A stretch of DNA of 28,895 nt from a virus: the IMG/VR virus record IMGVR_UViG_3300023180_006626, positions 1-28,895 of that record, one strand, 5' to 3'. The number at the start of each line of letters is the position of its first letter. Positions within the stretch are counted from its first letter, which is position 1. Of this stretch, positions 9,416 through 28,244 are shown in pieces. The translations under genes were made by a program, and so were the position numbers. The notes below the pieces were generated by a model, which did no database searches, had not been told where the DNA came from, and saw only the letters and a list, made by a program, of their open reading frames with translations.

Positions 9416-9620
9416 AATTATCTTGTTCTTTTTCTTTAAGAACTTTGTATTTGTTTCGTAGAATTGCTTTATTTTTCTTTTCTCGTTTGATTGCCGATGG
9501 TTTTTCGTAAAATTGTCTATCACGATATTCCATTAATATACCACTATCTTTTACTTTTCGTTTAAAGATTGATATAGCCTTTTCTACAGATTGTCCTTTT
9601 CGGACCTCTACTTTAATCAA
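9414..9620 (-). CDS. rpsU: Phage-encoded ribosomal protein bS21
   Basis: 68 residues with the full bS21 pattern: V-x-VRKGQSVEKAISIFKRKV, then SGILMEYRDRQFYEKPSAIK and a lysine-rich tail ending NKYKVLKEKEQDN. Bacterial bS21 sits on the small subunit near the 3' end of 16S rRNA and helps initiation. Viral copies are known in marine phages and are thought to replace the host protein. The start is TTG at 9620, placed by AGAGG about five bases upstream; no in-frame ATG fits the conserved N-terminus. It lies eight bases after the previous stop and has its own terminator. The rare start codon suggests restrained translation beside very highly expressed head genes. Confidence 0.9.
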   Translation of the reverse strand: MIKVEVRKGQSVEKAISIFKRKVKDSGILMEYRDRQFYEKPSAIKREKKNKAILRNKYKVLKEKEQDN

Positions 9621-9628
9621 ATTAACCT

Positions 9629-10306
9629 CTACTTTTTAACTTCTGTTTTTGCTTGGAAATTCTTATCAACATAATTAAAGAACTTCTTTTTAGCCTCATC
9701 ATCAAGTTCTGCTGGTGATTTTATTCCAAATTTTTTCATTGCATTTGCAAAGAATTCTTGATAATCACCCTCATCAATACTATGACCTGATGGTGTTTGA
9801 TTATCCTTTACTGGTATATCTTCTAATCCAAGTCTTACCAATTCATCATGGTCTTCATCACCCTCTATTTCAAAATATCTACCAAGAACATGGCCCATAT
9901 CTTCATATAAACCACTCATTCTTTGTTGTAGTACTTGTGATTCTTGTGCAATCTTTCCAAATGATTTTGATAAGTTTGTTAATTCTTTCATGTTACGATT
10001 TACCGTAACTTTATCAAACCAATCTTCGGTTTCACTTAGAGTATAATTTTTTCCCATTTCTGCAATTGATGATAATCTTTCTGCAATCTTTTTAAGGTCT
10101 ATTTCTTTCTGTAATACTTTACCGAAACTTGCAAATTCCTTAACTGCCGCTCTTACTTCTTTTGCAGATATCTTTTCTTCTTTCTTACCATAAATATCCT
10201 CAACCATACTTGTTAAAGATGTATTGGTATTTCCGATTGGTGGTGTAGATACTACTCCACCCAATACTGAAAAGTTTTCTTTTACTAAATCTTTTAATTT
10301 TGCCAT
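9629..10306 (-). CDS. Putative internal head protein with capsid-targeting-like N-terminus
   Basis: 225 residues, function unknown. The start MAKLKDLVKE/N fits the M-x-[KR]-L-K-x-[LI]-[ILV]-x-E pattern of five sites in this region and ends in a possible gp21-type cut. The middle is charged and helical (about residues 40-135). An acidic segment follows (FEIEGDEDHDELVRLGLED), then a C-terminal module SPAELDDEAKKKFFNYVDKN that I recall from other marine phage proteins. The ATG has a strong AAGGAG and a TATTTATT motif about 20 bases before it, so it probably starts a transcript that includes bS21. A packaged internal protein is the favoured guess. Confidence 0.6.
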   Translation of the reverse strand: MAKLKDLVKENFSVLGGVVSTPPIGNTNTSLTSMVEDIYGKKEEKISAKEVRAAVKEFASFGKVLQKEIDLKKIAERLSSIAEMGKNYTLSETEDWFDKVTVNRNMKELTNLSKSFGKIAQESQVLQQRMSGLYEDMGHVLGRYFEIEGDEDHDELVRLGLEDIPVKDNQTPSGHSIDEGDYQEFFANAMKKFGIKSPAELDDEAKKKFFNYVDKNFQAKTEVKK

Positions 10307-10325
10307 TTGTATCTCCTTATACTCT

Positions 10326-10333
10326 AATAAATA
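10326..10333 (-). promoter_or_regulatory. Candidate late-promoter motif (TATTTATT)
   Basis: Gene-strand reading is ATGATATTTATTAGAGTATAAGGAG. It lies in the 30-base gap between two genes, so the leader would be very short and contain the AAGGAG of the gene at 10306. Confidence 0.4.
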
Positions 10334-10336
10334 TCA

Positions 10337-10933
10337 TTATCTTCGTTTTTTACCGCCAAGATAACTACGAAATCTTTTATCTACTTTTGTCCATAGTACA
10401 CCCAACATCTCTCTAACACCCATACTGGTATCACCTGTTGGACCTGTTTTAATACCACGAATTAAATCCATAGCATCATACTTACCATTTTTCACACCAT
10501 TCATCATTACTTTGATGGTTTGTTGTGATGCCTTGTTGAAAAACTTACCCATTTCTTTTATATCTTTTTCAACAAATTGTTTGGCCTCTGGTGATGAATA
10601 TTTTGACATTGGAAAACTATTCACCCCTTTACCCTTTAATGAACCTGGTACATACATCTCTGCTTCATCTAAACCAGATTTACCATCAAGATAAGTGTGT
10701 ACACTTTGTAAATTTTCTAATGCGATAGTAAGAGCAGATTGTAACCATGCAGGTAACTCTACTTCACCATCTTCATCTTTTTTCATATTATCAATAATCT
10801 CATAATTCATACGAGCTAATTTTATACTTCTCTTTAATTGAGATTTTGCCATCTGACCTTCATGGTCGCCTTTCTTCTCATTAAGACGAAAATCTTTCCA
10901 TTGAGACCACATTTTATGTGTCATATCACTCAT
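10337..10933 (-). CDS. Conserved-type marine phage protein of unknown function
   Basis: 198 residues, basic at the C-terminus (GGKKRR). Residues about 26-85 (EGQMAKSQLKRSIKLARMNY, then ELPAWLQSALTIALENLQSV and HTYLDG) resemble a helical module I recall from many marine T4-like phages, often at the ends of larger modular proteins. Its biochemical role is not known to me. The C-terminal half (from about 110) is helical with a glycine-rich GIKTGPTGDTSMG loop. The ATG overlaps the previous stop as TAATG, with AGGAGAGG just upstream. It lacks the capsid-targeting-like start of its neighbours. Confidence 0.6.
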   Translation of the reverse strand: MSDMTHKMWSQWKDFRLNEKKGDHEGQMAKSQLKRSIKLARMNYEIIDNMKKDEDGEVELPAWLQSALTIALENLQSVHTYLDGKSGLDEAEMYVPGSLKGKGVNSFPMSKYSSPEAKQFVEKDIKEMGKFFNKASQQTIKVMMNGVKNGKYDAMDLIRGIKTGPTGDTSMGVREMLGVLWTKVDKRFRSYLGGKKRR

Positions 10934-11352
10934 TAACCTCTCCTATATAACCAACCACCATGAACATCAAAACGAGCATATGATTTAGGTTCAAAGATAT
11001 TACCTCTTACACCTTTTGCTCTTCCATTGTATCCTGCAGGTTTATAAATATCGCCTGTTTCTTTATCTACAAAGAAATGAACACTTAATCCATTCTTTGG
11101 CTCTGATGCACGAACATTAACTATTCTATCAAATTTTGGTCCTTTTTTCAAAAGTGTTGGATACTCCCAATTTTTTTGTTCCCATGTAGATGGAAATGAT
11201 TTTTTAAATTGTTTTTCTGCAGATTTCTTCATAAAATCTAACATCTTTTTCATTGCTCTATCATATCCAGCCTTTGCCTCATTCATTGCATGAATTTCTT
11301 TAGCAATATCTTTTGCAATATCCTCACCAATAATATCTTTTAACTTAATCAT
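10933..11352 (-). CDS. Putative internal head protein with KETGDIYKPAG module
   Basis: 139 residues. The N-terminus MIKLKDIIGE/D fits the capsid-targeting-like pattern with a possible cut after Glu10. A further site, MNE/A, lies at about residues 23-25. The C-terminal part contains HFFVDKETGDIYKPAGYNGR, AKGVRGNIF and HGGWLYRRG. I recognise this as a module found in many marine phages, without a known activity. It overlaps both neighbours by one base, so it is translated with them. Confidence 0.6.
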   Translation of the reverse strand: MIKLKDIIGEDIAKDIAKEIHAMNEAKAGYDRAMKKMLDFMKKSAEKQFKKSFPSTWEQKNWEYPTLLKKGPKFDRIVNVRASEPKNGLSVHFFVDKETGDIYKPAGYNGRAKGVRGNIFEPKSYARFDVHGGWLYRRG

Positions 11353-13550
11353 TAGTAATACCCTCTGAATTTGTTTTTAAGAATTAGATTAACTATTTCA
11401 GCAACTTCCTTACCATATCTTGGTGCATTTCTATATGATTTAGGATGTTCAGGGTTTCTTTTTTCATAATCAATATCATCTTTAACTGCATTATTATAAT
11501 AAGTAACCTTATCATATAATCTATCCATTGCATCAGTTATATTTCTCATTAATTCCATTGCTTGCATTTCAGGTGCTCGAGTACTACTTAAACCTTTTAG
11601 TAATTTTTTGGCAGCTGCATTTGGTTTACCACCAATCAAACCTGTAATTAATCCATCTGTATAATCTTTTGCTCTTTTAACTTTTGCTTTAACTTTTTCT
11701 GGGTCATCATACATTGCCTTAATAGCATCTTCGTATTTTTCTTTATTTTGTCTTTTGAAAGATTCATCATCTCTCCATTTCCAAGAACCAACTTGTATAT
11801 CTGACCTTAAGTTTCTAACTTCTTTACCACCCATGTATGGCATGCTTTCCTCAAGTGATATTTTGTAAAACTCAACTCCGTTAATTTTCTTTACTGATGC
11901 TGCGTTTTGATATCCAAATTGATTTAAACCAAAGGTACGATTTTCAGATGTAGAGAATCCATATCCTTTTGTATCTGCAACTCGTATATCTTTTTTTCTA
12001 TTCTTATCGGATTCTCTCCAAGATTTTGTCCACCAAACTGCCTTACCATCTTTGAAAACACTCAAGACAACACCTTTATCAACTTCTAAATCACTTCTCC
12101 AATAAGATTTTCCTTTAGCTGGTAAACTTACTTTTTTACCAGTTACTGCAATCACAACACCTTTACCAGATAGTTTTGCAGTTTTTTCAATCATATCATC
12201 AGTTACTTTATCTGCTCGTACACCTAATCTAGCCAACCATCCATAGAAATCATTATCTAATTTGAAATCTTGTCTATTGGTGAATTTTCTTAATAATTTA
12301 CTTTGTAATGCCTCTACTAAATAAGATACTTTTGATTCTCTCATTACATCTTTTAATTTTATTATACCTTCCTTTGTTTCTTTTGTTATATCGGTTTCAA
12401 GGTCTAATGCTGCTTGTTTAATTTTATCTTGAATTTGTTTATCAAGTTTTTCATCTTTTGGATTTCCGTCGTCATCTAAATTATCTCTAAATTCTTTTCC
12501 TAAATCTTTAAATACTTTTGCATCTGGATTACCTAATTTTTCTAAATTGTCTGCTGCCATATCAACATAGTAAGGTTCAATACCACCAGCCATTTGTGGA
12601 TTTTTTATATTTCTGATAGCGTCGTTGTAATCATCTTGTGCTCTTTGTTTTTGTTTAGGGTCTAACTTTGGTTTACCTAATGTTGAATATTTTTTATGAA
12701 AATCAATAAGTATTTTTGTCTTTTTTTCTAATTCTTCTCGTGGAACTTCTGATAAGGCTTCATCATCTAAATCCATTACATTTACCTCCGCAGAATAGAG
12801 TTTATCTATATCTTCTTGTGGAATTTGTCCTTCTAATTCACTAGCTACATTATATATCTGTTGATTAAATTCATCTACATTATCATCTAAATCGTTGATT
12901 ACTTTAGTTACATTAGTTATTCCCTTATCATCATACCTATTCCAATCCATACCGTCGATTGCTTCTTGAGCATCATCATCAAGTTCTACTGGTTCATCTG
13001 ATTTAGGTTTTTCTTTAACATCAATACCAATATTATTACCATCCCCATCAAAAGCATCTTGATAATAAAAATCTTCTATATCATCTGAATCCATTTCATT
13101 ACCATCAGCATCAAACATTTTTCCGTCTTTTATTTTCATCCCACCATCTAAATCAAATTCACCTTTCATATTTTTAACATCATCTGCGAATTGTTGTGGG
13201 CCTGATGATTTAAGTTTTCCGTCTTTAACTTTAGTTCCTACTTCTGGTTCATCATGTATTGGGTCAAAATCACTTAAATCAGATGGTTCCATACCATCAT
13301 CATCTGATGGTAGTTCTCTATCGAAATCACTACCACTCAATCCTTTAGATTTAGGGTCTTCTTTTCCACCATCTTTACCAATCTTTACAAGTTTACCACC
13401 ATCATTTTTATGTGTGATACCATCTTGGCCTTCTTTACCATAACCTTTACCTTTCCAAACTAAACCAAGTTTTTTGGCTTTTTCTTTTTCGGTATCTTTT
13501 AACTTTGGAGCATCTGCTTCCATTAATAATGTTTTTAATTTAATCATCAT
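11352..13550 (-). CDS. Two-part putative internal head polyprotein with an internal capsid-targeting-like sequence
   Basis: 732 residues. The start MMIKLKTLLME/AD matches the capsid-targeting-like pattern. Residues about 20-60 form a GYGKEGQDGITHKNDGGKL-type module, then 80-270 are very acidic. At residues 396-413 the same targeting pattern recurs internally (IIKLKDVMRESKVSYLVE/A), so residues 1-395 and 414-732 look like two packaged proteins joined in one frame. The second half is basic, with an SYWRSDLEVDKGVVLSVFKD segment and a helical C-terminus; no enzyme motif was recognised. It overlaps the upstream gene by four bases (ATGA). The acidic half might act as core filler like scaffold. Confidence 0.65.
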   Translation of the reverse strand: MMIKLKTLLMEADAPKLKDTEKEKAKKLGLVWKGKGYGKEGQDGITHKNDGGKLVKIGKDGGKEDPKSKGLSGSDFDRELPSDDDGMEPSDLSDFDPIHDEPEVGTKVKDGKLKSSGPQQFADDVKNMKGEFDLDGGMKIKDGKMFDADGNEMDSDDIEDFYYQDAFDGDGNNIGIDVKEKPKSDEPVELDDDAQEAIDGMDWNRYDDKGITNVTKVINDLDDNVDEFNQQIYNVASELEGQIPQEDIDKLYSAEVNVMDLDDEALSEVPREELEKKTKILIDFHKKYSTLGKPKLDPKQKQRAQDDYNDAIRNIKNPQMAGGIEPYYVDMAADNLEKLGNPDAKVFKDLGKEFRDNLDDDGNPKDEKLDKQIQDKIKQAALDLETDITKETKEGIIKLKDVMRESKVSYLVEALQSKLLRKFTNRQDFKLDNDFYGWLARLGVRADKVTDDMIEKTAKLSGKGVVIAVTGKKVSLPAKGKSYWRSDLEVDKGVVLSVFKDGKAVWWTKSWRESDKNRKKDIRVADTKGYGFSTSENRTFGLNQFGYQNAASVKKINGVEFYKISLEESMPYMGGKEVRNLRSDIQVGSWKWRDDESFKRQNKEKYEDAIKAMYDDPEKVKAKVKRAKDYTDGLITGLIGGKPNAAAKKLLKGLSSTRAPEMQAMELMRNITDAMDRLYDKVTYYNNAVKDDIDYEKRNPEHPKSYRNAPRYGKEVAEIVNLILKNKFRGYY

Positions 13551-15094
13551 AGTCTCACTTGTTTACCGAACCTACTCCACAATTTAGCCATAAATACATA
13601 TAATTGTTTTTCGTTCATTTTGTTAATTTTTTCTTTTTGTTTATCATTTGCTTTTTCATACACTTGTTTAAATAAATTAGCAGTCATAGCATCTACGGTT
13701 CTACCACCGAGTTTTCCAAATGAATGGTCATCTGCCATCTTCATAATTTTTTCTACACCCTTACCTTCATTTACTGATTCATTCATAAACTCATTGTCTA
13801 AAAATGAATGAATATCACGAGTGGTTTTAGGTAGTTTTTTACCTGTTACTTGGTTAAATATTGCGATTGAGTATGGTTGGTTGTGTCGTAATTTAGATTT
13901 TAATGCTCTGATATCTTTTTTCTTTATTGCCTTTACCAACTCATCATAAGTTCGTTTTGCATTCGCTTTATTTTGTGCAGTAACAGCTTTGATTATATCT
14001 TGTTTTTTATATTTTTGTGCACCTTTATCACCTTTTTTAAGAGCTATCTCCCAATTTCCCAACATTCTTTTTATTGAACTTTTTAGGTGGAAATAATCTT
14101 TTTTTGAAAATAACTTATACAATTTTTCAAAATCTCTATTTTCGTTTATTGATTCTTTTACTGATTCTTTCTTTGAATAATCTGGGTCAAGTTTTCTTAA
14201 CTTGATTAAAATATCTCTTAACATCTCTCTATCTGTAGAATCAAATCCAATTTCAAAATTTGGTTTCTTCTTTAATAATACTGAGTAGGCCATTCCGATT
14301 TCTTTTTGTCCTAATGTTCTTTTCTTTTTATCAGGGTAAACTCCTTTAGGCCCATAGAAATCATTCATATATTTAATAAATCCTCTGTAATCCATTTCAT
14401 TCAATATACTCTCACCTAAATCTTTGGTTTGTTTTTTCATCCCTTTTGGATTCACTAAACTTACACCTAATGTTTCAGTAGATAATAAATCTTTAGTTTT
14501 CAACATAAACTCTATCCAATGTTTCTTATATAAATTCATCAATTCCATACCTCGTTTTCTATCTTTACGAGCAACATCTTTGATTTTACTTTTAATAAGT
14601 TTATCTATTTCTGACATTTTCATTTCATTTAAACCATATGCTTCATTTACTGATTCTGCCTTTACACAATTTGGATATTTTTTACCAAACAATTCTTTTG
14701 TTTTTTGAGTAGGATGTATTTTATATCCTTTCCAACATTTCTCACATAAACACCCACCCATCTTTTCTGCCAACTCTTTTAATTTTTTATCAACTTTACC
14801 TGTACCACCTGGTGATTTTAATTTATAATTAGGGTCGACAGCAGAAGTAGTGTAACCACATGCTTCCATTTCGGTGTTGGTTAACTCTTTAATTGTTTTA
14901 ACTATCCACTCTTTGTTCACTTTTTCTGGTTTCCCTTTATGTTTTGTTGAAGCATACTTTTCAGTAGACTTCGTATCCATTGATTTTGCTGCCTTCTTTA
15001 CTGCGGGTGAGGCATCACTTGGTTTCATTTCTCCTTTATTAAGAGCATGAACCATACCCATAAATCTTTGTTGAGCTTTAGATTTGGATGGCAT
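13547..15094 (-). CDS. Putative multi-module head polyprotein with DUF3008-like N-terminus
   Basis: 515 residues. The N-terminus (MPSKSKAQQRFMGMVHALNK, then ASTKHKG) looks like the DUF3008 family of T4-like phages. A Cys-rich module follows (C79, C115, C117, C120, C143) with GYKIHPTQKTKELFGKKYPN. After it come four lysine-rich helical segments separated by short linkers: ESVNE/A (after 151), GLNE/M (157), SILNE/M (233), ESINE/N (318) and ESVNE/G (443). The last segment includes GGRTVDAMTANLFKQVYEKA, another recurring marine phage module. The [LIV]-N-E linkers look like prohead-protease sites, so the product may be cut into five or so small internal proteins. No catalytic motif was recognised. 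The ATG overlaps the previous stop by one base. Confidence 0.65.
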   Translation of the reverse strand: MPSKSKAQQRFMGMVHALNKGEMKPSDASPAVKKAAKSMDTKSTEKYASTKHKGKPEKVNKEWIVKTIKELTNTEMEACGYTTSAVDPNYKLKSPGGTGKVDKKLKELAEKMGGCLCEKCWKGYKIHPTQKTKELFGKKYPNCVKAESVNEAYGLNEMKMSEIDKLIKSKIKDVARKDRKRGMELMNLYKKHWIEFMLKTKDLLSTETLGVSLVNPKGMKKQTKDLGESILNEMDYRGFIKYMNDFYGPKGVYPDKKKRTLGQKEIGMAYSVLLKKKPNFEIGFDSTDREMLRDILIKLRKLDPDYSKKESVKESINENRDFEKLYKLFSKKDYFHLKSSIKRMLGNWEIALKKGDKGAQKYKKQDIIKAVTAQNKANAKRTYDELVKAIKKKDIRALKSKLRHNQPYSIAIFNQVTGKKLPKTTRDIHSFLDNEFMNESVNEGKGVEKIMKMADDHSFGKLGGRTVDAMTANLFKQVYEKANDKQKEKINKMNEKQLYVFMAKLWSRFGKQVRL

Positions 15095-15300
15095 TATTTC
15101 GCCAAACCATCACCATTCCACTCGGTGTTGATTCTTCCACTTGTAGGTATTTTTAATTGTTCTAATCCACTATCACCACCTAAAGAATCGTTGCCTGTTT
15201 TGGTGAATGGTGATTTATATTTTTCTAAACCATCATCTCCTGCCAAACTATCGTTTTTCTTTGGTATATTTGGTAATTTTCTATCTTCTAAACCTGGCAT
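15094..15300 (-). CDS. Small protein made of 21-residue repeats
   Basis: 68 residues, almost entirely repeats. GLE begins at residues 3, 24 and 45 and GLA at 65, with NDSLAGD and NDSLGGD at matching places. The unit is roughly GLE-x-x-K-x-P-x5-NDSL-x-GD. No known family. AGAGGAG lies just upstream of the ATG at 15300, directly after the protease gene, and its end overlaps the next gene by one base. The repeat could bind a repeated head component such as core or shell subunits; this is a guess. Confidence 0.6.
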   Translation of the reverse strand: MPGLEDRKLPNIPKKNDSLAGDDGLEKYKSPFTKTGNDSLGGDSGLEQLKIPTSGRINTEWNGDGLAK

Positions 15301-15301
15301 C

Positions 15302-15922
15302 TTATTCTCCTCTTATAATCTTGTTGATTAAATCTTCTGCTTTACAATACTGACCACAAGTTCTTCCTTGTGTTGGTGTTCTTTCAACACCCTCTTGTAG
15401 TGGATACATGAAGGCACCATGTGTAGATGGATTACTTACAAAATCAAAAGCTATTAATTCAAAATCATTTCCAACTTTTGTTGTTGGTGTACCATCTGCT
15501 TCAGTAACAGTCTCTACTGAACCCATACCACGAGAACTGATACCTAATTTGATACCATTCTTAAATAATTCTCTTAAAATGTTTCCACTTGGTGTGGTTA
15601 GGATTTCAACTGTTCCTAATAAGTTGTCACCTTCCCAATGCATTTCAGTAATATTATGTGATACATTTTGTAAGTTCACTACTGAAGAATCTGGATGGTC
15701 AAGTTCACCTAATGCTCTCTTTTGAGAAATAAAGTTTTCTGTATAGTTTTTTGCTTCTCTCTGAAGAATGTTTGTTGGATATACTCTTCCATTTTGATTT
15801 TTTGCATTTGCTCTTTGTAATACACCTTTTACAATCAACTTTCCGTTGTTTTCTTTTAGTGATTCAGTTATCTGTTCCGCAGATAACTCAAAAGGTATAT
15901 AATCTACTAATAAGTTTCTCAT
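15302..15922 (-). CDS. Prohead maturation serine protease (T4 gp21-like, peptidase S80)
   Basis: 206 residues, near the length of T4 gp21. The early NGRVYPTNIL segment and the catalytic motifs are typical: His76 in GELDHP, Ser129/Ser130 in LGISSRGMGS, and Asp160 in FDFVSNPS. These enzymes work inside the prohead and cut the scaffold, the capsid delta domain and internal proteins after Glu in [LI]-x-E. The capsid (LIDE/A) and scaffold (VLNE/G) genes here carry such sites, as do the linkers of several accessory proteins. The C-terminal tail (RTPTQGRTCGQYCKAEDLIN) is lost or self-cleaved in comparable enzymes. It overlaps the preceding gene by one base. T4 places gp21 between gp20/67/68 and gp22; here six further head-region genes and bS21 separate it from the scaffold. 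Confidence 0.92.
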   Translation of the reverse strand: MRNLLVDYIPFELSAEQITESLKENNGKLIVKGVLQRANAKNQNGRVYPTNILQREAKNYTENFISQKRALGELDHPDSSVVNLQNVSHNITEMHWEGDNLLGTVEILTTPSGNILRELFKNGIKLGISSRGMGSVETVTEADGTPTTKVGNDFELIAFDFVSNPSTHGAFMYPLQEGVERTPTQGRTCGQYCKAEDLINKIIRGE

Positions 15923-16281
15923 TATTTCATCCTATTCACTAAACCTACAGCTTCTCTCATGAATTTAGTTACATTATCTTTGTAGGCCTTGTTAATCTGT
16001 TTTGCTAAATCTTTATTTTCACTATCTTCTTTGAAAACTTTTTCTAACTTTATTAATCTTTTTCTCAACACACCTTCTTCTTTTATAAACATCTGTAATT
16101 GTTTTTTTGCCTTTGCCTTTTCTTCACGACCTTCACTTATGTTGTCGTTTCCTTTCCAATCACTAGCTTGATTCTCTTGATGTTTTTCCATTACTGATTG
16201 AAGTGTTGGTAATGGTTGACCAAATTCTCTATCTAATAAACTAATACTTTCTGTTAGGTACTTATCGTTTGTTTTACTCAT
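15922..16281 (-). CDS. Small helical protein before the prohead protease, unknown function
   Basis: 119 residues, charged and helical with likely coiled coil from about 50 to 110. The N-terminus contains YLTESISLLDREFGQPLPTL. The C-terminal region has FMREAVGLVNRMK. Position between portal and protease corresponds to T4 gp67/gp68, small head-core proteins, but I see no sequence match strong enough to name it. It overlaps both neighbours by one base. Confidence 0.6.
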   Translation of the reverse strand: MSKTNDKYLTESISLLDREFGQPLPTLQSVMEKHQENQASDWKGNDNISEGREEKAKAKKQLQMFIKEEGVLRKRLIKLEKVFKEDSENKDLAKQINKAYKDNVTKFMREAVGLVNRMK

Positions 16282-16559
16282 TATATTTTATCCATTAATC
16301 GTTTAATTTGTTTTAGTGTTTTTGAAGTGAATTGTGCACTTTGAAACACTTTATAATCTTCACCTATTTTAACTAACTCATCGATTTGGTCTCTTAAATC
16401 ATATTTCATTTTTCTCCAAACCTTACTATCGATTTTGTTAGCTGGTATAACTTTAATGTTTTCATTAATTCTTACTTCAATCACTTGTTCTTTAGTGGAA
16501 CAACATCCCCCACCACATTCACAAGTATCTTCTTTTATTAAATTTTTTAACCTAATCAT
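16281..16559 (-). CDS. Small Cys-rich protein with capsid-targeting-like N-terminus
   Basis: 92 residues. MIRLKNLIKE/D at the start fits the shared targeting-like pattern with a possible cut after Glu10. A cluster CECGGGCC at residues 13-20 could bind metal. A second candidate site, INE/N, ends at residue 33, so the Cys peptide (11-33) might be released separately. The remaining 59 residues are helical and basic. The start overlaps the upstream stop (ATGA). A small packaged internal protein is inferred; no family recognised. Confidence 0.6.
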   Translation of the reverse strand: MIRLKNLIKEDTCECGGGCCSTKEQVIEVRINENIKVIPANKIDSKVWRKMKYDLRDQIDELVKIGEDYKVFQSAQFTSKTLKQIKRLMDKI

Positions 16560-17644
16560 TTTAAATTCCCTACTCTACTTGCTAATTTAACTAATCTCTC
16601 AGATATACTACTAAGAGCCTTGTGTGTGTTTTTCCAATAACTTCTTGAATCAACATTTAATTCATTTTTCAATCTTAAACTCATTTTGATTGTTTTATCT
16701 AATTCATTTAATGAGTTACGAACTTCACGAATTGATTTACCAATTTTTTGTTTTGGTGTTAAAGATTCGTCATTTCTCCAATCGTGATACTTACCCTCAT
16801 TTATACTTTCATAAAAATAATCATCCATTGGTTCTTTAACTTGAAAACTAATATAAGACCATACATTACCCTTTAGTTTTTTCAAAACTTCTTCAAAGTT
16901 AAATGCCATTTCTCTTGCTTTGTTCTTTTTAGCAAACTTCAACATCATTTCAGTTTCTTTTTCTAATTTTTTCCAATTGTTTGTGTATCGTTTAAGTAAT
17001 GCAGCAGCTTGTTTTTTTACTTTAGGGTCAACTGCCTCATCTACGGTTATTGATTCGTTTCTTATATGACCCTTTAAAATTTGACGAAGTGTAGTTATTT
17101 CTTTTGTAGCCTTTAAGATAGTTTCATAATACTTATTAAATTTTCTATCTTTAAGTGTTTTATCACCTATTTTAGCAATATTCCAATAATCTTTTTGTAG
17201 TTTTTCTAAACTGTTTTGAAGTTTTCGTAATGCATCAACTTCTTTTTTAGTAACTTCGTTTACATTTTCAATCTTTTTATCTACTTGTTTGCCAAGTGCT
17301 GGTTGTACACGAGATACACTTATAACTCCTTTTAAACCTTGTTTTAATTTTTTGGCAACCATTGTTTTTGCCATACCTTTTGAACCTGCATCCACAAGAA
17401 CTTTACCTTGACCTAATTTACCCATATCAACAGTTACAGCAAATTTTACTTCACTTACTTGTTTTAAACCAGATTGATTTGCAATATCATCTCGTTTCTT
17501 TTTATCTTTTTTTCTACCACCATCGAATGCCATTGGTGTCATGTATCCAGGTGTTGCTGCAGAAGTAGAGACTTCTTCAATCTCTTTCTTGATTAAGTTT
17601 CTTAAAGCTTCAATAAATTTTGCTTTATTTATCTTTGTGGACAT
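16556..17644 (-). CDS. Putative head polyprotein with TPGYMTPMAF module, unknown function
   Basis: 362 residues, basic and helical. The N-terminal helix (INKAKFIEALRNLIKKEIEE) runs into STSAATPGYMTPMAFDGG, a motif I recall from marine T4-like phages, then a DKKKRDDIANQSG segment. Linkers ENVNE/V (after 130), ITVDE/A (203) and ESINE/G (283) divide the rest into three helical parts. The last (LTPKQKIGKSIREVRNSLNE) is again a recurring module. The linker sites match the predicted protease rule. It overlaps the end of the upstream gene by 20 bases. Expected to be a head-internal or core protein, without known chemistry. Confidence 0.6.
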   Translation of the reverse strand: MSTKINKAKFIEALRNLIKKEIEEVSTSAATPGYMTPMAFDGGRKKDKKKRDDIANQSGLKQVSEVKFAVTVDMGKLGQGKVLVDAGSKGMAKTMVAKKLKQGLKGVISVSRVQPALGKQVDKKIENVNEVTKKEVDALRKLQNSLEKLQKDYWNIAKIGDKTLKDRKFNKYYETILKATKEITTLRQILKGHIRNESITVDEAVDPKVKKQAAALLKRYTNNWKKLEKETEMMLKFAKKNKAREMAFNFEEVLKKLKGNVWSYISFQVKEPMDDYFYESINEGKYHDWRNDESLTPKQKIGKSIREVRNSLNELDKTIKMSLRLKNELNVDSRSYWKNTHKALSSISERLVKLASRVGNLK

Positions 17645-18500: not shown

Positions 18501-18533
18501 CAAACACTCCATTTTTAACTATTATATCACATA

Positions 18534-18541
18534 TATAAATA
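18534..18541 (-). promoter_or_regulatory. Candidate promoter region: TATTTATA motif plus TGATATAAT extended -10
   Basis: Gene-strand reading is GTTTTATATTTATATATG, then TGATATAATAG. The second string is a perfect sigma70 extended -10, though no good -35 lies 17 bases upstream. The region follows a small hairpin after the portal stop and would start the head-region operon at 18500. Confidence 0.4.
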
Positions 18542-18550
18542 TAAAACTTT

Positions 18551-18570
18551 TAAGAAATCGCTATTTCTTA
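18551..18570 (-). terminator. Weak hairpin at the end of the portal gene
   Basis: TAAGAAAT (18551-18558) pairs with ATTTCTTA (18563-18570) around a four-base loop, overlapping the portal stop codon. The stem is AT-rich and the T-run after it is short and interrupted, so termination is probably partial. Confidence 0.35.
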
Positions 18571-20387: not shown

Positions 20388-20401
20388 TTTTTACCTCTTT
20401 G

Positions 20402-21976: not shown

Positions 21977-22350
21977 TATTTTAGTTCGCCTGCAAGTTTA
22001 ACCGAAACCGAAGTTGCGGCAACACCATAAACAAACCATAACCATTTGTTTTCGTGCCACTTAGGTTTCACTACTTTCACTTTTTCTTTATACAGATTAA
22101 TAGTTTCTTCTTGTAATTGAAGTTGCTGAGTTCTAAAATCAATAATAAGAGAATCAGATTTTGCATTATCCTCTAATAATGAGATTTGTGTTTCCAAATC
22201 CATCACTAAAGATACATTCAAACTATCTTTTAACTCTAATTCTTTGATTTTGTTAGTGAACCCAAGAACTTCTTCCTCTGTAAAGGTGAAAGTTTTTGTA
22301 TCTTGCCCAAACAACAAACCAAGAAATAATATGTAAATAAAATATCTCAT
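21976..22350 (-). CDS. Exported coiled-coil protein with C-terminal membrane segment (spanin-like?)
   Basis: 124 residues. A signal peptide (MRYFIYILFLGLLFGQ, likely cut near residue 16) is followed by about 80 residues of coiled coil with leucine and charged heptads. A C-terminal hydrophobic stretch (KWLWFVYGVAATSVSV) follows. This resembles envelope-spanning lysis proteins (spanins) or periplasmic tethers in shape, but I see no specific family match. The FGQ-type end of the signal peptide is common in Bacteroidota and Marinimicrobia. A TATTTATA motif ends only a few bases before the ATG and no ribosome binding site is visible, so translation may be leaderless or weak. It is followed directly by terminase. 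Confidence 0.55.
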   Translation of the reverse strand: MRYFIYILFLGLLFGQDTKTFTFTEEEVLGFTNKIKELELKDSLNVSLVMDLETQISLLEDNAKSDSLIIDFRTQQLQLQEETINLYKEKVKVVKPKWHENKWLWFVYGVAATSVSVKLAGELK

Positions 22351-22353
22351 ATA

Positions 22354-22361
22354 TATAAATA
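22354..22361 (-). promoter_or_regulatory. Candidate late-promoter motif (TATTTATA) before the exported protein and terminase
   Basis: Gene-strand reading is AGTATATATTTATATATATG, with the gene's ATG (22350) at the very end. It lies in the 15-base gap between two genes. If used, the transcript would begin at or after the ATG, so it may instead serve the terminase gene. Confidence 0.3.
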
Positions 22362-22365
22362 TATA

Positions 22366-22650
22366 CTACTTACTAAATTTCTTCAAATATTTTACTGCCT
22401 CATCAACATCATCTGTTTTAACTGCTTCTTCGGCTTTTTCGATTTGTTTTTTGGTAGTAGTTACCTTTCTCTTAAGAGAAGCAACTTCTTTTTTGTTTAC
22501 TCTTTTTTTAGATTCAAGTTTTTCAACTTGTTTCTCAAGGTCTTTAACCTCTTCGTTTTTTGCCTTAATGGCTGTATCTAATTTTTTGACTTCTTCTTTT
22601 TTCTTTCCACCAAAAAATAGATTCATTATGAATTGAATAATTCCACCCAT
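22366..22650 (-). CDS. Small coiled-coil protein with hydrophobic N-terminus
   Basis: 94 residues. A short hydrophobic N-terminal segment (GGIIQFIMNLFFGG) is followed by continuous Lys/Glu-rich heptads to about residue 75 and an EAVKYLKKF end. Likely a membrane-touching coiled coil, perhaps acting with the exported protein encoded next. Family not recognised. AGGAG lies seven bases before the ATG, and 18 bases separate it from the previous stop. Confidence 0.55.
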   Translation of the reverse strand: MGGIIQFIMNLFFGGKKKEEVKKLDTAIKAKNEEVKDLEKQVEKLESKKRVNKKEVASLKRKVTTTKKQIEKAEEAVKTDDVDEAVKYLKKFSK

Positions 22651-22668
22651 TATTATCTCCTGTGTTTG

Positions 22669-23244
22669 TTATTTATTGTTTTTGGTTGTATTGAGTAAGT
22701 TTTCCTCTTCATCTATATCTGCTTGTAGTTTATCAATATGTGCATATGCCTCTTCTACAATCTTACTGAATTGTTCCTCACCCATTTCCCATTGTTCTTT
22801 TTCAAGTTCTACTTCTTGTACACCAACTTGATTAAAGAATTCTGCTTTACCACCATTTTGTTCAAATTCAACAATACTTTGTCTCAAATCTTTTAAATAT
22901 GCCTTTTTATTCTCTAATACTTTTCTTTTTGCATACTCTTCAAATTCACCTTTATATCTCAGTTTGGTTTCTATCTCTATTTGACAATCCATACAATGTC
23001 CAAATAATCTCCAAAACTTATTATCAAGTTTTTTCTTCATTGTTTTTTGACAATTAGGACAAAACCAAGGCATTCTTACTGATGCCATTACATCTGTTAA
23101 TTCTGATTTACGAGTTTCTCCACCACGATTTTCTTGTTTACCTTCATATCCGACTTGAATATAATCTTTAACATGCTCTTTACCAGACATCAAATCCTTT
23201 AAGGCTTTGTTTTGTCTTTCCATGTCCTTACTATAATTTGCCAT
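22669..23244 (-). CDS. Zinc-ribbon protein upstream of terminase, unknown function
   Basis: 191 residues. Cys62, Cys65, Cys84 and Cys87 (CPNC and CMDC, 18 residues apart) form a treble-clef or ribbon zinc site near the RMPWF segment. The N-terminal 50 residues are polar, the C-terminal half is acidic and helical. Two genes separate it from the large terminase. In T4 the small terminase gp16 precedes gp17, but gp16 has no such zinc site and I see no similarity, so I do not assign it. A DNA- or protein-binding role in packaging is possible. TAGGAG precedes the ATG. Confidence 0.55.
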   Translation of the reverse strand: MANYSKDMERQNKALKDLMSGKEHVKDYIQVGYEGKQENRGGETRKSELTDVMASVRMPWFCPNCQKTMKKKLDNKFWRLFGHCMDCQIEIETKLRYKGEFEEYAKRKVLENKKAYLKDLRQSIVEFEQNGGKAEFFNQVGVQEVELEKEQWEMGEEQFSKIVEEAYAHIDKLQADIDEEENLLNTTKNNK

Positions 23245-23252
23245 TGTAACTC

Positions 23253-26200
23253 CTATCCAAATTTTAAACTACCAAGTATTTGATTGATTGGAGCAAATGC
23301 ACCAGTAAACTTATATACTTTACCTTTGTACTTAAATACAATTCCCTCACTTGGAACAATTGATTTTAATCCACCAATTGCATTTAGTTTTTCTATTTGT
23401 GTTTTTAGTTTTTTTAATTTCTCTATATTATCTTTTTTACTTAAATCTCGATATGCCTTCTCCATTTCATCACGAACTTTCTGAACTGACTTATCAGGAT
23501 TTACTGCCATATAACCACTTATGTTTTTCAATATCTGTGCTCCCACATCAAAGAACAATACTTCAAATGGTTTTATATTATCTTTAAAAATTTTAGTGTG
23601 GTCAAACTTATCTGTATTCACTATCCACTCTACAAACTTTGGATTATCTTTGTAATCACTTCTAATTTCTTGTATCTTATATGATTTATCAAAGTATGCC
23701 CATCTACGAACTAACTTTGCAAATTGAGCAGGTTTTAACTTTACACCAAATTGTTTTGATGCATTAAAAATATACTCTCTCCAATATGCCTCATGATATT
23801 CACCTAATGTATTTTTATCATTCAATCCATATGTTGATTGTAATCTTTTTAATCTACCCAAGTATGTATTTTTTAATTTATCATAATCTTGGTGTTTTGG
23901 TACTTTTAAAAAGTTTGGTTTACCAATCTTAAATGTTTTTTGTATACTTTGATTCACTTGTTTAATCATACCTGCCAACATACGAGCAGAATCTTTTGGT
24001 TGTCCTATTGGTCTACCACTTTCATCATACTCTAATGTACCATGAAATACTATTTCTGCCACATCATAATCTATTACATTTGCTGTTGCTGGATACATAA
24101 CCTCTAAATTCATCCATCGTTTACCATTACCGAATACTTTTTCTTTTTGTTTATCCGATAAAGAACCGATTGCTTTTTCTAAATCTCTCATCGCACCTAC
24201 GAATGCTTTTTTAATATCACCTCTACCACTAAAAATAGATGCAACTCCTTTAGTATCTGGTGCAGTTTTACCAAAGTTTCTTAAGTGTCCTTTGTTTCTG
24301 GCAGCTTTTAACTTACCATCAATCCAACTAACCATTAGATTTTGTCCATCGAGTTTCTCTGTAACTCCATCTTCTCTATCTAACTTTCCACCGATACCAT
24401 TAATAATTATGGTCTTTAAATCTGAAAATGTAAGATTATTGTCATCGAAAGGATGACTCATGTGTCCATAGGCTCCACCCATTAATAATAACTCCTTTGT
24501 CTCTTTAATAAATGATTCTTGCATCTGCTTGATTCTATCACCCATCTCATCTTCTGCAGGTGTTAAATCAAGATTAATTGCTCTTTGTGTATTTTGGTCT
24601 TGTGTTTGTACACCAGGTAATGCAGGTGCCTCAACAGGTACACCAGTAACATTTTTAGTATCTGGTGTTAATCCCATCCACTTTAATATTTCAAAATCTA
24701 ATGTACCAACAACTTTTTCTATCCAATCTTTATATGCAATTACTGGGTCATCTTCACCAAACCTCTCTCCGTAAGGACCAGCACCTTTTCTACCATAGGC
24801 AACTGTCGGTACTTTGTTCATTCTTGTGGTGAAATCTAAACCTGGGTCATTTGCATTTGGACTTAAAATATACTGAACGATTTCCCAACCCATACCAGGT
24901 TCTCTATCAGTAATGTACATTTTATTAATCCATTGAGTAGTATGTGTTTTATAATCATCAAACCCATCATAGTATGTAGGTGGGCCATCATCAATAGGAA
25001 CTGCTGCTCTATCTGATGCCTCTTTAAGTAATTTACCCAAATCTATTTCTTGTATAAACTTATCAATCGTTTCAAATAACTTTTTAAATTTATTATTCAT
25101 CATTTGGAACACACCCTTATCATAATATCCAAATGCTTGTTTAAATAATTTTTCTCTATCTTGTTCGTAATCTGGTGAACCAAGTAATTGTCTCATTACG
25201 GTTCCACTCACTTCTTTACCACCAACCTTAACTGATTGATGTGGTGCAGTCATAAAGTATCCATGTTCTTCATATCCCTTTAGATTATTTTTATTCTTTT
25301 TATAATCTTGGAAATATGATAACCCACCAGATTTCTTTTTACCACCTGCTAATCTACCTGCATCTTTTTCACCAAAGATATAAATTACTGCGGTAGTTGC
25401 AGGGTCATATTTCTTAAGAACATTCTCTGCCTTAAGTGGTACTTTTTCCTTAACAATTCGATTTTTAGGAACACCCATTTTTACCATGTGTCGAACTTTT
25501 TCTGCAAAGTTCATAGGATGTCTTGGTGGTTTTTTGATATCTGAAGTAGTGATGTATGCATCATCCACTTGAGATTTTAACCATTTATAGGTTTTTAAAT
25601 GGTGAGGCCCAAACGGTTGATACCGTCCACCATAAATACCTACAACCTTTTTAATCTTTTGTTCGGAAATGGTTGCATTATCCCCATTTTCCATACTTAA
25701 ATATAAGGCTTTTTTCATATAAGAGTCAAGGTTTTTTTGTAAATTTTCTACTTTTTTATACCCACTTTTTTTATTAGTTTTGTTTTTCTTAACACCCTTT
25801 CTACTCGGTGATGGTATTACTCCTGCAGGTGCACCAAACTCTTCATTAATAATACCACCTCGTTCATTATACCATTTTCTAAATTGTGCTGGTGTTCCTA
25901 CGGTAACTTTACCTTTTGCAATTTTTTCTACTTCTTTTCTTATACTATCATATTGACCCACTCTTTTTAACATAAATACATCTTGAATATGAATTTGATT
26001 CACAACTATTTCATTCCACCCGTGTTCTGATGGTTTATCTTTTTGACTTAATATGTGTCGTTTGATTTGTGGTGCATACTTTCTCATTATTTTATAACAC
26101 ATATCAATATATTTTTTAATCCATTCTCTTTTGTAAGGCCCTAATGCCTTTTTTAGGTTTTCGTCGTGTGCTTGGTGGTCATATTGAGTATCACCATAAC

Positions 26201-28244
26201 CTGTTTTTTTCCTTACTTCAGCATCAACTTTATCCTGTATCTTGTCCCATTCTCGTCTATCTATTTTATTTTTTTCAACACCTTTTTTTAATTCATCATA
26301 CATTTTACCACCAGCACCTTTACCTGCTAAATGATATGGTGGAACCCATCTACGACCTGTTTTATCTGGTGTTGATTGTATATCTCTTGTGCTTGCAACT
26401 AATAAAGTTCCCTCTATTTGATAAATAACACCACCTTTACTTTGTATTCCTTGTCCTTTTGCAAGTTTCTCACCTTTGTCTACTGCGGTAAATGTAGATA
26501 ACGAACTTTTCTTCCCAACGATTCTTCCAACTTGTTGTATATCTGATTTTAATTCTGCAGCACCGACGTGAAATACACTTACTTTTTCCTTACCTATTAT
26601 CTTTTGCATAAATTTAGTAGATAATGGAACATAATTTGCATAAAAACCACCGAATGTTTGGTCGAATGATGACCTCGTGTGAACTGATTGAAACTTTGGT
26701 TCTGCCTCATTTATCACACCCTCACCTAAATACAATTTCTTTTCTAATTCTTTTATCTTATCACCAATCTCTGGCCCTTTTAACCCAACAAACTCTTTAC
26801 CACCTGGTCTTACACTTAATTTAAAGTTAACAAGTTTCTTAAAATCTTTACCTATCATCTTACCATAACTTATAATTTGGTTTGGTGTTAATGTAGTTTT
26901 TTCTTGTGCTTTTTTTACATTGTAGATATTTGATGGTTTAAAATCATTTAAGTATACTAAAAATGTTATATTCTTTACTTCATCACCACTATACTTTAAT
27001 TGATTTAAAATCTTTGGTAATTTATCTACTTTATTAGTTCTTAAAACAATTGCTAAAAATAAAATAAAATCCTTGACATTGGGATAAGGTTTACTTATAT
27101 TTAACTTGGGAAACATTTGTTTAGTGAATCCAAACTTATCAAGTGCTTCCATAAATAACTTTTGTGATTTTCCTTTTTGTATTCCTTTTATAAATTCTTC
27201 TCTAATTCGTTCTCTACTTACACCCGTTAAACTTGGATTCTTCATTAGAGCAATCTCTGTATCTTTATCCATCTTACCACCGATAACTGCTTGAAATCTT
27301 AATGCTCTTAATTTTCTTAATGGGTCTTCATCAAATCTTTCAGATGCTTTACCAACTGTTCTAACAATTTTATCTTTTAAATCTTGTAATCCACCTGTTA
27401 AATCCACTACTTCATTTCTATCAATATCATAAAACAATGAATTAATTGTTAAATCTCTACGATTCACATCACCTTTTATATCAGAGAAATCAACTGCCTT
27501 AGGTCTTCTACCTTTACCAATATCTTTTCTAAATGTGGCAATCTCATGTCCACCCACCACAACAACACCAAACTTTTTACCAACTGAAATAGTTTTGAAT
27601 CCACCTTTTTTTGCAATCTTTTCTACTTCATCAGGTTTTGCATTTGTGGCCAAATCAAAATCTTTAGGTGATTTACCAAGTATGGCATCACGAACTGCAC
27701 CACCTACGATATACAATTCTTTTTTAGATTGTCTGAATAATTTATAGATTTTTTTGATATCATTTGGAACTCGTAAAGTTATTTTGTTTTCATTGATTTC
27801 TTCTTTTTTCAATCTACTTTTTTCTCTACGACCTCTGTTTTTAGATTGGTCTTCATAACCTGAAATCTTACCATTTTTATGTGAAGCATCTTTCTTATCC
27901 CCATTTCCATAAGTACCTTTTTGACGATTATATTTATTTAATTCCGCTCTATACTTTTTCATCTTGGTAGATGATTGGAATTTTTTGTATTCGTCTTTAT
28001 AATCTCTTTCGGCCTTCTCTTCTAATTGTTCTTCACTATCATCATTTTGTTTTTTGATTGGGCGAAACTTTAGGGCAGGTCTACCATTTATCAATACATC
28101 ACCTTTTTCATTTGTATCTATGGATTTAACCTTAACTCTTTTATTTTTAAACTTACCCATTAAGACGGTATCACCAACTTCTACATCTAATTCAATACCC
28201 TCAACAAGTGGTTTAACTAACCATTCTGTGAGTTTTGTTTTCAT
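23253..28244 (-). CDS. Giant multi-enzyme putative internal head polyprotein (CCA/PAP-like, NMNAT-like and ligase-like domains)
   Basis: 1663 residues in one frame. Residues 1-15 (MKTKLTEWLVKPLVE/G) look like a capsid-targeting sequence, followed by a small KOW-like region to about 65. Residues 155-505 are a class II CCA-adding/poly(A) polymerase: YIVGGAVRDAILG, DFDLAT with catalytic Asp196/198, RRDLTINSL and RFDEDPLRKLRALRFQA. Residues 514-800 are unassigned. Residues 867-1020 are an NMNAT/cytidylyltransferase-type fold: GIYGGRYQPFGPHH and VSGTVMRQLL. Residues 1076-1230 are unknown. Residues 1250-1660 are a covalent nucleotidyltransferase (ATP-dependent DNA/RNA ligase type) with Lys1297 in EKLDG, ARNKG, NLEVMY, SEGIVFKYKG and YKFTG. 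[LI]-x-E sites lie between domains at 152, 513, 801 and 1075. The ribosome site is weak; it starts five bases after the upstream stop. Confidence 0.85.
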   Translation of the reverse strand: MKTKLTEWLVKPLVEGIELDVEVGDTVLMGKFKNKRVKVKSIDTNEKGDVLINGRPALKFRPIKKQNDDSEEQLEEKAERDYKDEYKKFQSSTKMKKYRAELNKYNRQKGTYGNGDKKDASHKNGKISGYEDQSKNRGRREKSRLKKEEINENKITLRVPNDIKKIYKLFRQSKKELYIVGGAVRDAILGKSPKDFDLATNAKPDEVEKIAKKGGFKTISVGKKFGVVVVGGHEIATFRKDIGKGRRPKAVDFSDIKGDVNRRDLTINSLFYDIDRNEVVDLTGGLQDLKDKIVRTVGKASERFDEDPLRKLRALRFQAVIGGKMDKDTEIALMKNPSLTGVSRERIREEFIKGIQKGKSQKLFMEALDKFGFTKQMFPKLNISKPYPNVKDFILFLAIVLRTNKVDKLPKILNQLKYSGDEVKNITFLVYLNDFKPSNIYNVKKAQEKTTLTPNQIISYGKMIGKDFKKLVNFKLSVRPGGKEFVGLKGPEIGDKIKELEKKLYLGEGVINEAEPKFQSVHTRSSFDQTFGGFYANYVPLSTKFMQKIIGKEKVSVFHVGAAELKSDIQQVGRIVGKKSSLSTFTAVDKGEKLAKGQGIQSKGGVIYQIEGTLLVASTRDIQSTPDKTGRRWVPPYHLAGKGAGGKMYDELKKGVEKNKIDRREWDKIQDKVDAEVRKKTGYGDTQYDHQAHDENLKKALGPYKREWIKKYIDMCYKIMRKYAPQIKRHILSQKDKPSEHGWNEIVVNQIHIQDVFMLKRVGQYDSIRKEVEKIAKGKVTVGTPAQFRKWYNERGGIINEEFGAPAGVIPSPSRKGVKKNKTNKKSGYKKVENLQKNLDSYMKKALYLSMENGDNATISEQKIKKVVGIYGGRYQPFGPHHLKTYKWLKSQVDDAYITTSDIKKPPRHPMNFAEKVRHMVKMGVPKNRIVKEKVPLKAENVLKKYDPATTAVIYIFGEKDAGRLAGGKKKSGGLSYFQDYKKNKNNLKGYEEHGYFMTAPHQSVKVGGKEVSGTVMRQLLGSPDYEQDREKLFKQAFGYYDKGVFQMMNNKFKKLFETIDKFIQEIDLGKLLKEASDRAAVPIDDGPPTYYDGFDDYKTHTTQWINKMYITDREPGMGWEIVQYILSPNANDPGLDFTTRMNKVPTVAYGRKGAGPYGERFGEDDPVIAYKDWIEKVVGTLDFEILKWMGLTPDTKNVTGVPVEAPALPGVQTQDQNTQRAINLDLTPAEDEMGDRIKQMQESFIKETKELLLMGGAYGHMSHPFDDNNLTFSDLKTIIINGIGGKLDREDGVTEKLDGQNLMVSWIDGKLKAARNKGHLRNFGKTAPDTKGVASIFSGRGDIKKAFVGAMRDLEKAIGSLSDKQKEKVFGNGKRWMNLEVMYPATANVIDYDVAEIVFHGTLEYDESGRPIGQPKDSARMLAGMIKQVNQSIQKTFKIGKPNFLKVPKHQDYDKLKNTYLGRLKRLQSTYGLNDKNTLGEYHEAYWREYIFNASKQFGVKLKPAQFAKLVRRWAYFDKSYKIQEIRSDYKDNPKFVEWIVNTDKFDHTKIFKDNIKPFEVLFFDVGAQILKNISGYMAVNPDKSVQKVRDEMEKAYRDLSKKDNIEKLKKLKTQIEKLNAIGGLKSIVPSEGIVFKYKGKVYKFTGAFAPINQILGSLKFG

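Follow-up and report, generated by a model that had tools for sequence, protein, structure and literature searches.

The window, as we call the whole stretch of DNA analysed here (28,895 bases of virus record IMGVR_UViG_3300023180_006626, 32% G+C), carries its main genes on the minus strand. A gene for a giant protein of 1663 residues is followed by three small genes, the terminase and the portal, and then by a run of small unassigned genes, a gp21-type protease among them, which leads to the genes for a scaffold-like protein and for the capsid protein, of gp23 type. Of the genes in this run, four begin with a common ten-residue signal, and the giant begins with a longer variant. Comparison with related sequences demonstrated that this signal has a motif confined to gene starts, that unrelated proteins share it, that it exchanges with internal sites and that such sites lie at domain borders. 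Judged from sequence, we consider it probable that the signal is a capsid-targeting sequence (CTS) leading cargo into the phage head, and that this cargo includes polyproteins which would be cut by the gp21-type protease. The features on which the analysis bears are the following, with a slash marking a presumed or candidate cut:

10277 to 10306, minus: N-terminal signal MAKLKDLVKE of a 225-residue protein (9629-10306), recognized by sequence and class A motif statistics
11323 to 11352, minus: N-terminal signal MIKLKDIIGE of a 139-residue protein (10933-11352), whose mature part matches DUF7717
13518 to 13550, minus: N-terminal signal MMIKLKTLLME of a 732-residue protein (11352-13550), which fits the motif after an extra Met
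12336 to 12365, minus: whole internal copy of the signal, IIKLKDVMRE, followed by SKVSYLVE, residues 396-405 of the 732-residue protein
16530 to 16559, minus: N-terminal signal MIRLKNLIKE of a 92-residue protein (16281-16559)
28200 to 28244, minus: 15-residue N-terminal signal MKTKLTEWLVKPLVE of the 1663-residue giant (23253-28244)
27789 to 27791, minus: Glu152 of the giant, candidate site EEINE/N, between a basic module, which follows the first domain, and the nucleotidyltransferase domain
26880 to 27722, minus: CCA-adding / poly(A) polymerase type nucleotidyltransferase domain of the giant, about residues 175-455
26706 to 26708, minus: Glu513 of the giant, candidate site GVINE/AEPKF, corresponding to a gene start in relative L204 and lying in a stretch of low predicted local distance difference test (pLDDT) score, 504-522
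25842 to 26705, minus: domain 3 of the giant, residues 514-801, ending at candidate site GGIINE (Glu801)
25662 to 25841, minus: low-confidence spacer of the giant, residues 802-861, between candidate sites IINE (801) and TISE (861)
25035 to 25661, minus: NMN/pantetheine adenylyltransferase-fold (NMNAT/PPAT) domain of the giant, residues 862-1070
23256 to 24560, minus: tentative RNA-ligase-like C-terminal domain of the giant with an EKLDG motif, residues 1229-1663
13547 to 15094, minus: modular protein of 515 residues with a DUF3008 start and candidate sites SVNE/A 151, GLNE/M 157, SILNE/M 233, SINE/N 318 and SVNE/G 443
16556 to 17644, minus: protein of 362 residues with candidate sites such as ESINE/G 283 and VNE 130
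15302 to 15922, minus: prohead serine protease of gp21 type, presumed to do the cutting (phrog_207, 4.5e-53)
6409 to 8061, minus: major capsid protein of gp23 type with presumed pro-site RQLIDE/A at Glu64 (phrog_138, 2.4e-73)
8076 to 9254, minus: acidic scaffold-like protein, start MDDLLKE/A, assigned by position and composition, with no family match in PHROGs

The initial annotation had reported that the proteins starting at 10306, 11352, 13550 and 16559 on the minus strand share M-x-[KR]-L-K-x-[LI]-[ILV]-x-E, and this is correct. It had placed the giant beside them as a fifth case; its start at 28244 holds, but its N-terminus does not match the ten-residue motif and belongs to a second, 15-residue class of signals seen also in relatives (MNKLTEWLTKPLIE, MNRLTEWLVRPLTE and others). 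A slightly wider form of the ten-residue pattern, class A, was found at 23 of 901 open reading frame (ORF) starts and at none of 3,821 internal methionines in six contigs, namely the window (four of its 27 ORFs), three viral contigs (G001, G002 and G003), Flavobacterium phage immuto and Microcystis phage Mel-JY01. By terminase, Mel-JY01 and the Flavobacterium phages immuto are the nearest annotated records (53-55% identity), and many relatives closer than these are uncultured contigs. Relatives were drawn as the best 80 of at least 600, 80 of 233 and 80 of 220, plus 30 loci from 31 stretches, and at least one search pattern behind the set of 80 from 220 lies within the giant's basic module; the resulting set of 3,300 distinct proteins is therefore enriched for the modules under study. 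ORFs were called mechanically, and some starts are wrong. Class A signals were present in 33 of 765 ORFs of the best 80 of at least 600 relative loci, and they cap 168 of the 3,300 proteins (all fetched loci, T4 regions included). Single-linkage clustering at E<1e-3 sorts the rest of these 168 proteins into 39 families, which bears out the view of the initial annotation that the remainders behind the shared start are unrelated.

Exactly ten residues make up 127 of the 168 signals, with L, I or V at position 4, L or I at 7, a hydrophobic residue at 8 and E at 10, a profile partly fixed by the search pattern. When only the first five residues were fixed and positions 6-16 left free, residue 10 was E in 124 of 176 cases; K stood there in 27 of the others, which apparently represent a head gene of the MIKIKHSKYKNTG type. 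The residue following Glu10 varies freely (S, K, E, N, A, D, G, I). In T4 (73 kb of 169 kb) the class A pattern was found in one of 113 ORFs, gp24 (MAKINELLRE), and it misses ipI-III and alt, whose signals are without the KLK core; in lambda it was found in none of 68 ORFs. The idea of a motif common to all T4-like phages was set aside, since the head region of P-SSM4 (49 kb of 178 kb) gave no hit in 54 ORFs.

The initial annotation had further suggested, from length, hydrophobic spacing and terminal Glu, that the proteins are drawn into the prohead and trimmed, and comparison with the T4 signals supports this suggestion. In the T4 record ipII and ipIII start with MKTYQEFIAE, alt with MELITELFDE and gp24 with MAKINELLRE, all ten residues with Glu10, while the start of ipI is longer. 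For packaging in T4, residues 1-10 of IPIII are described as sufficient, targeting is ascribed mainly to residues 4 and 7 and processing to residues 8 and 10, where Asp is described as blocking it, and the gp21 cleavage motif is given as L/I-X-E with the cut after Glu (available text of PMC9026906). The block by Asp concerns position 10. The window signals, with L4, L/I7, V/I/L8 and E10, coincide with these mapped positions. The targeting reading is based on this T4-like length, the hydrophobic positions, Glu at the P1 position, the gp21-type protease gene among the tagged genes and a similar end at the pro-site of the major capsid protein. The protease of the window shares 29% identity with T4 gp21 and keeps GEL-x-HP and SSRG in the alignment. 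Of 30 capsid homologues, 28 have the core pattern and 27 a complete start; all 23 distinct pro-regions carry the presumed pro-site [LI][IVL]xE before A or S, and 22 the narrower form L[IVL]xE, immuto having IVSE. The presumed cleavage ends of capsid protein and cargo therefore match, with V at P3 in part of the cargo sites, and a motif of the L/I-X-E type expected of gp21 substrates is present on both.

The initial annotation missed a second set of sites: [LIV]-x-E sequences inside the proteins, at domain borders, which make several genes look like polyproteins. Domain 3 of the giant illustrates how such sites exchange with gene termini. In L204 it is a separate gene that reads MIKLKDLLNE/AEPKFQSVHT...GGIINE-stop, and in the window giant it reads GVINE/AEPKFQSVHT...GGIINE/EFG. 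It forms a separate gene with a class-A-like tag in L203, L204, L210, L217, L220, L224 and L238, and is internal in the window and in others. The genes of L204 and L210 stop exactly at the Glu of IINE, which in the window leads into the next module, and those of L220 and L224 end at ILDE, so that four of the seven tagged genes end at a site and the other three do not. The NMNAT-fold domain behaves similarly: some relatives have it at the N-terminus, where it follows signals such as MNRLVKQLITPFITE, and in others it stands inside the chain, behind KKVNE, INLNE or NATISE and differing upstream sequence. [ILVMF].E was found in the 16 residues before this domain in 12 of 12 N-terminal contexts (one of them, in L022, probably a misplaced start) and in 52 of 53 internal ones, compared with 19% of random windows. 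For an alignment of these cases (A1), 35 rows were chosen by eye from the lists of NMNAT-fold contexts and domain 3. The internal tag IIKLKDVMRE of the 732-residue protein has as its counterpart in L015 a separate gene starting MIKLKDILKE/SKVSHLITE, and parts of the 515-residue protein occur in other arrangements among relatives. Thus protease-type sites at domain borders appear to interchange with the termini of separate genes, as would be expected of polyproteins.

This exchange was then counted more generally. The mature parts of 205 proteins with a signal of either class (48 families) were matched to 418 distinct counterparts that start at residue 40 or later in another protein. [ILVMF].E lay within 8 residues of the junction in 372 of the 418 (28% at random positions in the same proteins) and within 2 residues in 325 (9% at random), and 13 of 16 families, the terminase being one of them, had the site in the majority of their rows. 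Since some counterparts are homologous genes with longer starts, a second count took only junctions from residue 100 onwards; there the site was found within 8 residues in 279 of 302 cases (random 24%) and within 2 in 246 (random 8%), with 14 of 15 families having it in the majority, the terminase again included. At a limit of residue 80 the site was present in 298 of 325.

An all-versus-all comparison of the proteins gave 13,469 places at which homology stops inside both partners. The strict form [ILV][NST]E was found from -4 to +12 of left homology borders in 23.6% (8.3% expected) and within 8 residues of right borders in 17.3% (8.0%). A de novo search for words over-represented at clustered borders (3,500 of 6,866 left and 3,500 of 6,603 right borders) returned NE, L.E, I.E, V.E, VNE, INE, LTE and VKE among others. 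Among the third residues tested after [ILV]x (3,000 of 6,866 borders), Glu alone was enriched: 1.91-fold for [ILV].E, compared with 0.97 for D, 0.94 for K, 0.85 for N and 0.92 for Q, and with D, K, N, Q and S together ranging from 0.85 to 0.98. Shifting the spacing by one residue lowered the enrichment to 1.26 and 1.32.

In AlphaFold2 models, all five [ILV][NST]E sites of the 515-residue protein fall in stretches with pLDDT below 50 (29% of its residues), and in residues 490-1663 of the giant all four lie in, or at most 2 residues from, low-pLDDT stretches (28% of residues). One of these stretches, 802-861, spans exactly the distance from IINE to TISE.

Several observations weigh against the interpretation of these tags and sites as targeting and cleavage signals. 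Three families of the counterpart test lacked the site in the majority of rows; three modules dominate the counterparts (171, 109 and 26 of the 418 rows), 248 of the 302 later junctions (residue 100 onwards) come from two modules, and 35 of the 418 rows stem from one family with most junctions before residue 80, which are partly just longer starts. The unrelated words PLG and RDP are raised at right borders, and E.[ILV] (1.60-fold), [KDEN]NE (1.64) and P.P (1.79) are raised in the test of third residues. The motif is too short for any single site to be called. Raw [ILV][NST]E counts per protein in the six contigs are weakly raised, and tail and other proteins also exceed their shuffled versions; per-protein counting was dropped as evidence, as the cargo proteins were not singled out, and its reversed control was inflated because many sites read ES[IV]NE. 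The looser [ILV].E falls in low-pLDDT stretches in 7 of 14 cases in the giant and 9 of 12 in the 515-residue protein, the model confidence of the two stretches is moderate (mean pLDDT 63 and 66), and part of the low pLDDT may come from variable linkers that align poorly. The giant's GVTE/KLDG at 1296, one of the nine sites in low-pLDDT stretches, is probably not a cut site, because it lies on the ligase motif. The domain 3 gene of L200 starts without a tag, and three terminases (of the MKPERLKKVIREEYLK type) are false positives of class A.

The location of the tagged genes is another point of this kind. The initial annotation had asked whether motif hits cluster near the gp21 and gp23 genes, and the answer was mixed. 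In G003 six of seven motif genes lie at 17.6-37.9 kb, near the terminase (about 27-28.6 kb) and the capsid gene (39.9 kb), and in G001 four of six lie at 2-10.6 kb, between a partial capsid gene and the terminase; near the head genes, however, lie none of two class A genes in G002, one of three in Mel-JY01 and the single one of immuto not at all. Clustering was accordingly abandoned as proof. In T4, too, ipI-III and alt are away from the head cluster, with gp22 and gp24 inside it. In immuto, nine of 224 ORFs carry one of two other N-terminal classes (B and C), and eight of these nine are at 102-125 kb beside the terminase and capsid genes; elsewhere these classes were found in none of 238 ORFs of Mel-JY01, 233 of G001 and 72 of G003, and in one of 107 of G002, away from the head genes. 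The immuto classes (160 kb; L084-L086 with L082) are of the MKKSQLRQIIKE type and of the FDLKKFLVENKLTxNS type. In Mel-JY01, far from the head genes, two tandem genes at 60276-61102 (L087) start with MIKLKSLL[QK]EIISDRVWHLTT and are possibly duplicated injected effectors.

Among the alternatives, the one that survives best, although we regard it as unlikely, is that the peptide is a true, trimmed capsid-targeting sequence, that the internal [LIV]xE sequences are ordinary linkers and that the long proteins remain uncut and serve as multidomain (polyvalent) effectors. This would agree with the enrichment of KE, ES and EN at borders, alongside E.[ILV] and [KDEN]NE, with the weak raw counts per protein, and with precedent, as multidomain phage proteins have been predicted to be packaged and the N4 virion RNA polymerase is described as packaged unprocessed (available text of PMC5512222). 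It accounts less well for an enrichment that is strongest for Glu at one-residue spacing, for sites and N-terminal signals that swap at or near the same residue, and for the four of seven tagged domain 3 genes that end at the Glu of a site. It is less likely still that the peptide is an amphipathic helix that is never removed and docks to a membrane, a host protein or the nucleoid: the amphipathic pattern and the several carriers outside the head cluster would suit such a helix, but Glu10 is kept while the next residue is free, as expected of a cut site, and the match to the T4 sequence, as mapped in the available text of PMC9026906, and to the gp24 start holds position by position. Least probable, in our judgement, are functionless scars of head-to-tail fusion of tagged genes, for even though the 732-residue protein keeps an entire internal tag and the same modules are separate genes in relatives, many internal junctions keep [LIV]xE alone, without the KLK part, and the site is kept in 52 of 53 internal NMNAT-fold contexts despite varied upstream sequence, which points to selection for the site.

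For head cargo with internal cleavage sites, the reading we prefer, the giant offers the richest example. Its nucleotidyltransferase domain matches PF01743 (2.8e-31), phrog_2244 (8e-57) and, below the curated cut-off, NF009814 (1.7e-50), and the predicted assignment to the CCA/poly(A) type is firm at superfamily level. For residues 862-1070 the structural model supports an NMNAT/PPAT fold (Foldseek probability 1.00, E 4e-3; VIA Z 9.5 over 150 residues, 3.5 Å), and the sequence match to PF01467 is weak (E 1e-3, under cut-off); the VIA list of structure matches was filled by domains of this type. The C-terminal domain is tentatively RNA-ligase-like (PF09414 at E 0.025, under cut-off; T4 RNA ligase 1 by Foldseek at E 0.43). 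The giant's modelled parts gave no Foldseek match at E<=0.001, and a sequence search against solved structures returned no match for the NMNAT-like and ligase-like parts. The giant thus holds one firm enzyme domain, one supported fold and one tentative assignment. Domain 3 (residues 514-801) had no Pfam match above chance and none in NCBIfam; an ADP-ribosyltransferase had been suspected here from the strings FHVG and STFT, support for it was not found, and we do not claim it. Searches of the giant in PHROGs, Pfam and NCBIfam matched no peptidase domain. Among relatives, a tagged protein in L184 belongs to NUDIX (PF00293, 6e-18) and a tagged one in L098 is HAD-like by eye. Phage tRNA repair by ligases acting with nucleotidyltransferases has been described, as have ADP-ribose enzymes packaged in phage heads, and NAD synthesis by phages is discussed as a possible counter-strategy (available text of PMC9503650).

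The basic module of about 75 residues (giant residues 75-152, about 27789-28022, minus) reads ERDYKDEYKKFQSS...GNGDxKDASHK...SKNRGRxEKSRLKKE and appears HNH-like by eye; it occurs in 46 proteins of the fetched set, the giant's own family included and many of them otherwise different, often with [LIV]xE at its right edge. Directly upstream of the giant, an ORF cut by the contig end (28250-28894, minus) is possibly modular, with a weak DUF5872 match and a candidate MSE/T junction. At the other end of the run, between the scaffold and the tagged genes, a small basic ORF (9414-9620, minus) resembles by eye the Mel-JY01 gene annotated RpsU (bS21; L083, 22183-22410), and the head cluster may thus include a phage bS21. 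The C-terminal motif KLAGI of the scaffolds (RFKKLANIL in the window, 8076-9254; also L082, 26610-27851, and L083, 23870-24970) is similar to FRRMQKLAGIITE, found at the N-terminus of a putative cargo protein of immuto (L082, 12659-13123), and may be a core-docking motif common to scaffold and cargo.

On the evidence of its sequences, the lineage is like T4 in the testable features of capsid targeting: a tag of about ten residues with the key positions, its presence on unrelated mature parts, and the company of a gp21-type protease, a gp23-type capsid protein and a scaffold-like gene. The likeness to the T4 CTS of IPI-IPIII and Alt and to the gp24 propeptide extends to a ten-residue peptide with Glu10 on otherwise unrelated proteins (ipII, ipIII, alt, gp24), to hydrophobic or aromatic residues at positions 4, 7 and 8 (ipII and ipIII) and to a gp21-type protease among the head genes; packaging and cleavage would by this comparison proceed in the same way. 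The lineage differs from T4 in its consensus with a KLK core, in the breadth of carriers (39 families in the fetched set) and in the reuse of the cleavage half of the signal inside cargo proteins. In phiKZ and SPN3US inner-head proteins are likewise cut after Glu by a gp21 relative, and long propeptides are cut several times (PMC10052503, PMC9026906). In SPN3US, however, of the 14 mapped cuts 13 take off N-terminal propeptides and one trims the protease (PMC10052503), and the available text of both accounts contains no case of several mature enzymes from one chain.

For the long chains the closest idea is that of the polyvalent proteins of Iyer and others (2017), multidomain phage proteins of large size with 2 to 15 domains per polypeptide, some of them nucleotidyltransferases, whose packaging and injection have been predicted and which have been compared with RNA-virus polyproteins (PMC5512222). 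Their release is ascribed to embedded peptidase domains, frequent if not universal, whereas in the giant none was matched and the candidate sites fit a separate head protease; in the available text of that paper the word prohead occurs in one reference title only. DarB of phage P1 has a 30-residue N-terminal signal that suffices to send a reporter to the capsid, but this is a different phage, and the available text of PMC9024508 reports no code shared by dozens of proteins. The open PMC papers that name a capsid targeting sequence concern, as listed, T4, P1, P22, SPN3US, T4-based vectors or T4 biology, and none of them this lineage or polyprotein cargo that a prohead protease cuts; nor did we find an open PMC paper in which a prohead protease frees several mature enzymes from a single polypeptide. 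Virion proteomics or N-terminal sequencing for this phage lineage was likewise not found in the open PMC literature, which also tells against our interpretation; packaging, cleavage and injection are therefore steps that we infer, together with core binding and the enzyme activities of the cargo.

In the mechanism we propose, the shared N-terminus would act as a T4-style capsid-targeting sequence, a short amphipathic helix that binds the scaffold core, so that the tagged protein becomes enclosed in the prohead, where the gp21-type protease would cut after the Glu of [LIV]-x-E. The same cleavage signal, set also between domains, would turn long proteins into cargo polyproteins; candidates are the tagged giant and 732-residue protein, and the 515-residue and probably the 362-residue protein, both without a class A tag. 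Such a string of modules would enter the head, be split by the head protease into separate mature proteins and accompany the DNA on injection. The products of the giant would be a CCA/poly(A) nucleotidyltransferase, domain 3, an NMNAT-fold enzyme and an RNA-ligase-like enzyme, that is, a kit for tRNA repair and NAD supply at infection. We lean, by a small degree, towards the broader view of a lineage-wide cargo code, in which any protein with a tag of 10-15 residues would enter the head, the maturation protease would double as a polyprotein protease, and modules for tRNA repair, NAD and other functions would be shuffled between [LIV]xE sites and delivered pre-cut early in infection.

If this is true, a short pattern would predict which of the many unassigned genes of these phages encode injected proteins and where these are cut, and testable functions (tRNA repair, NAD supply, early counter-defence) could be proposed for genes whose present annotation is hypothetical. 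The head protease of a tailed phage would then do more than trim, processing polyproteins as well, and the tags are candidate handles by which proteins of choice could be loaded into phage heads.

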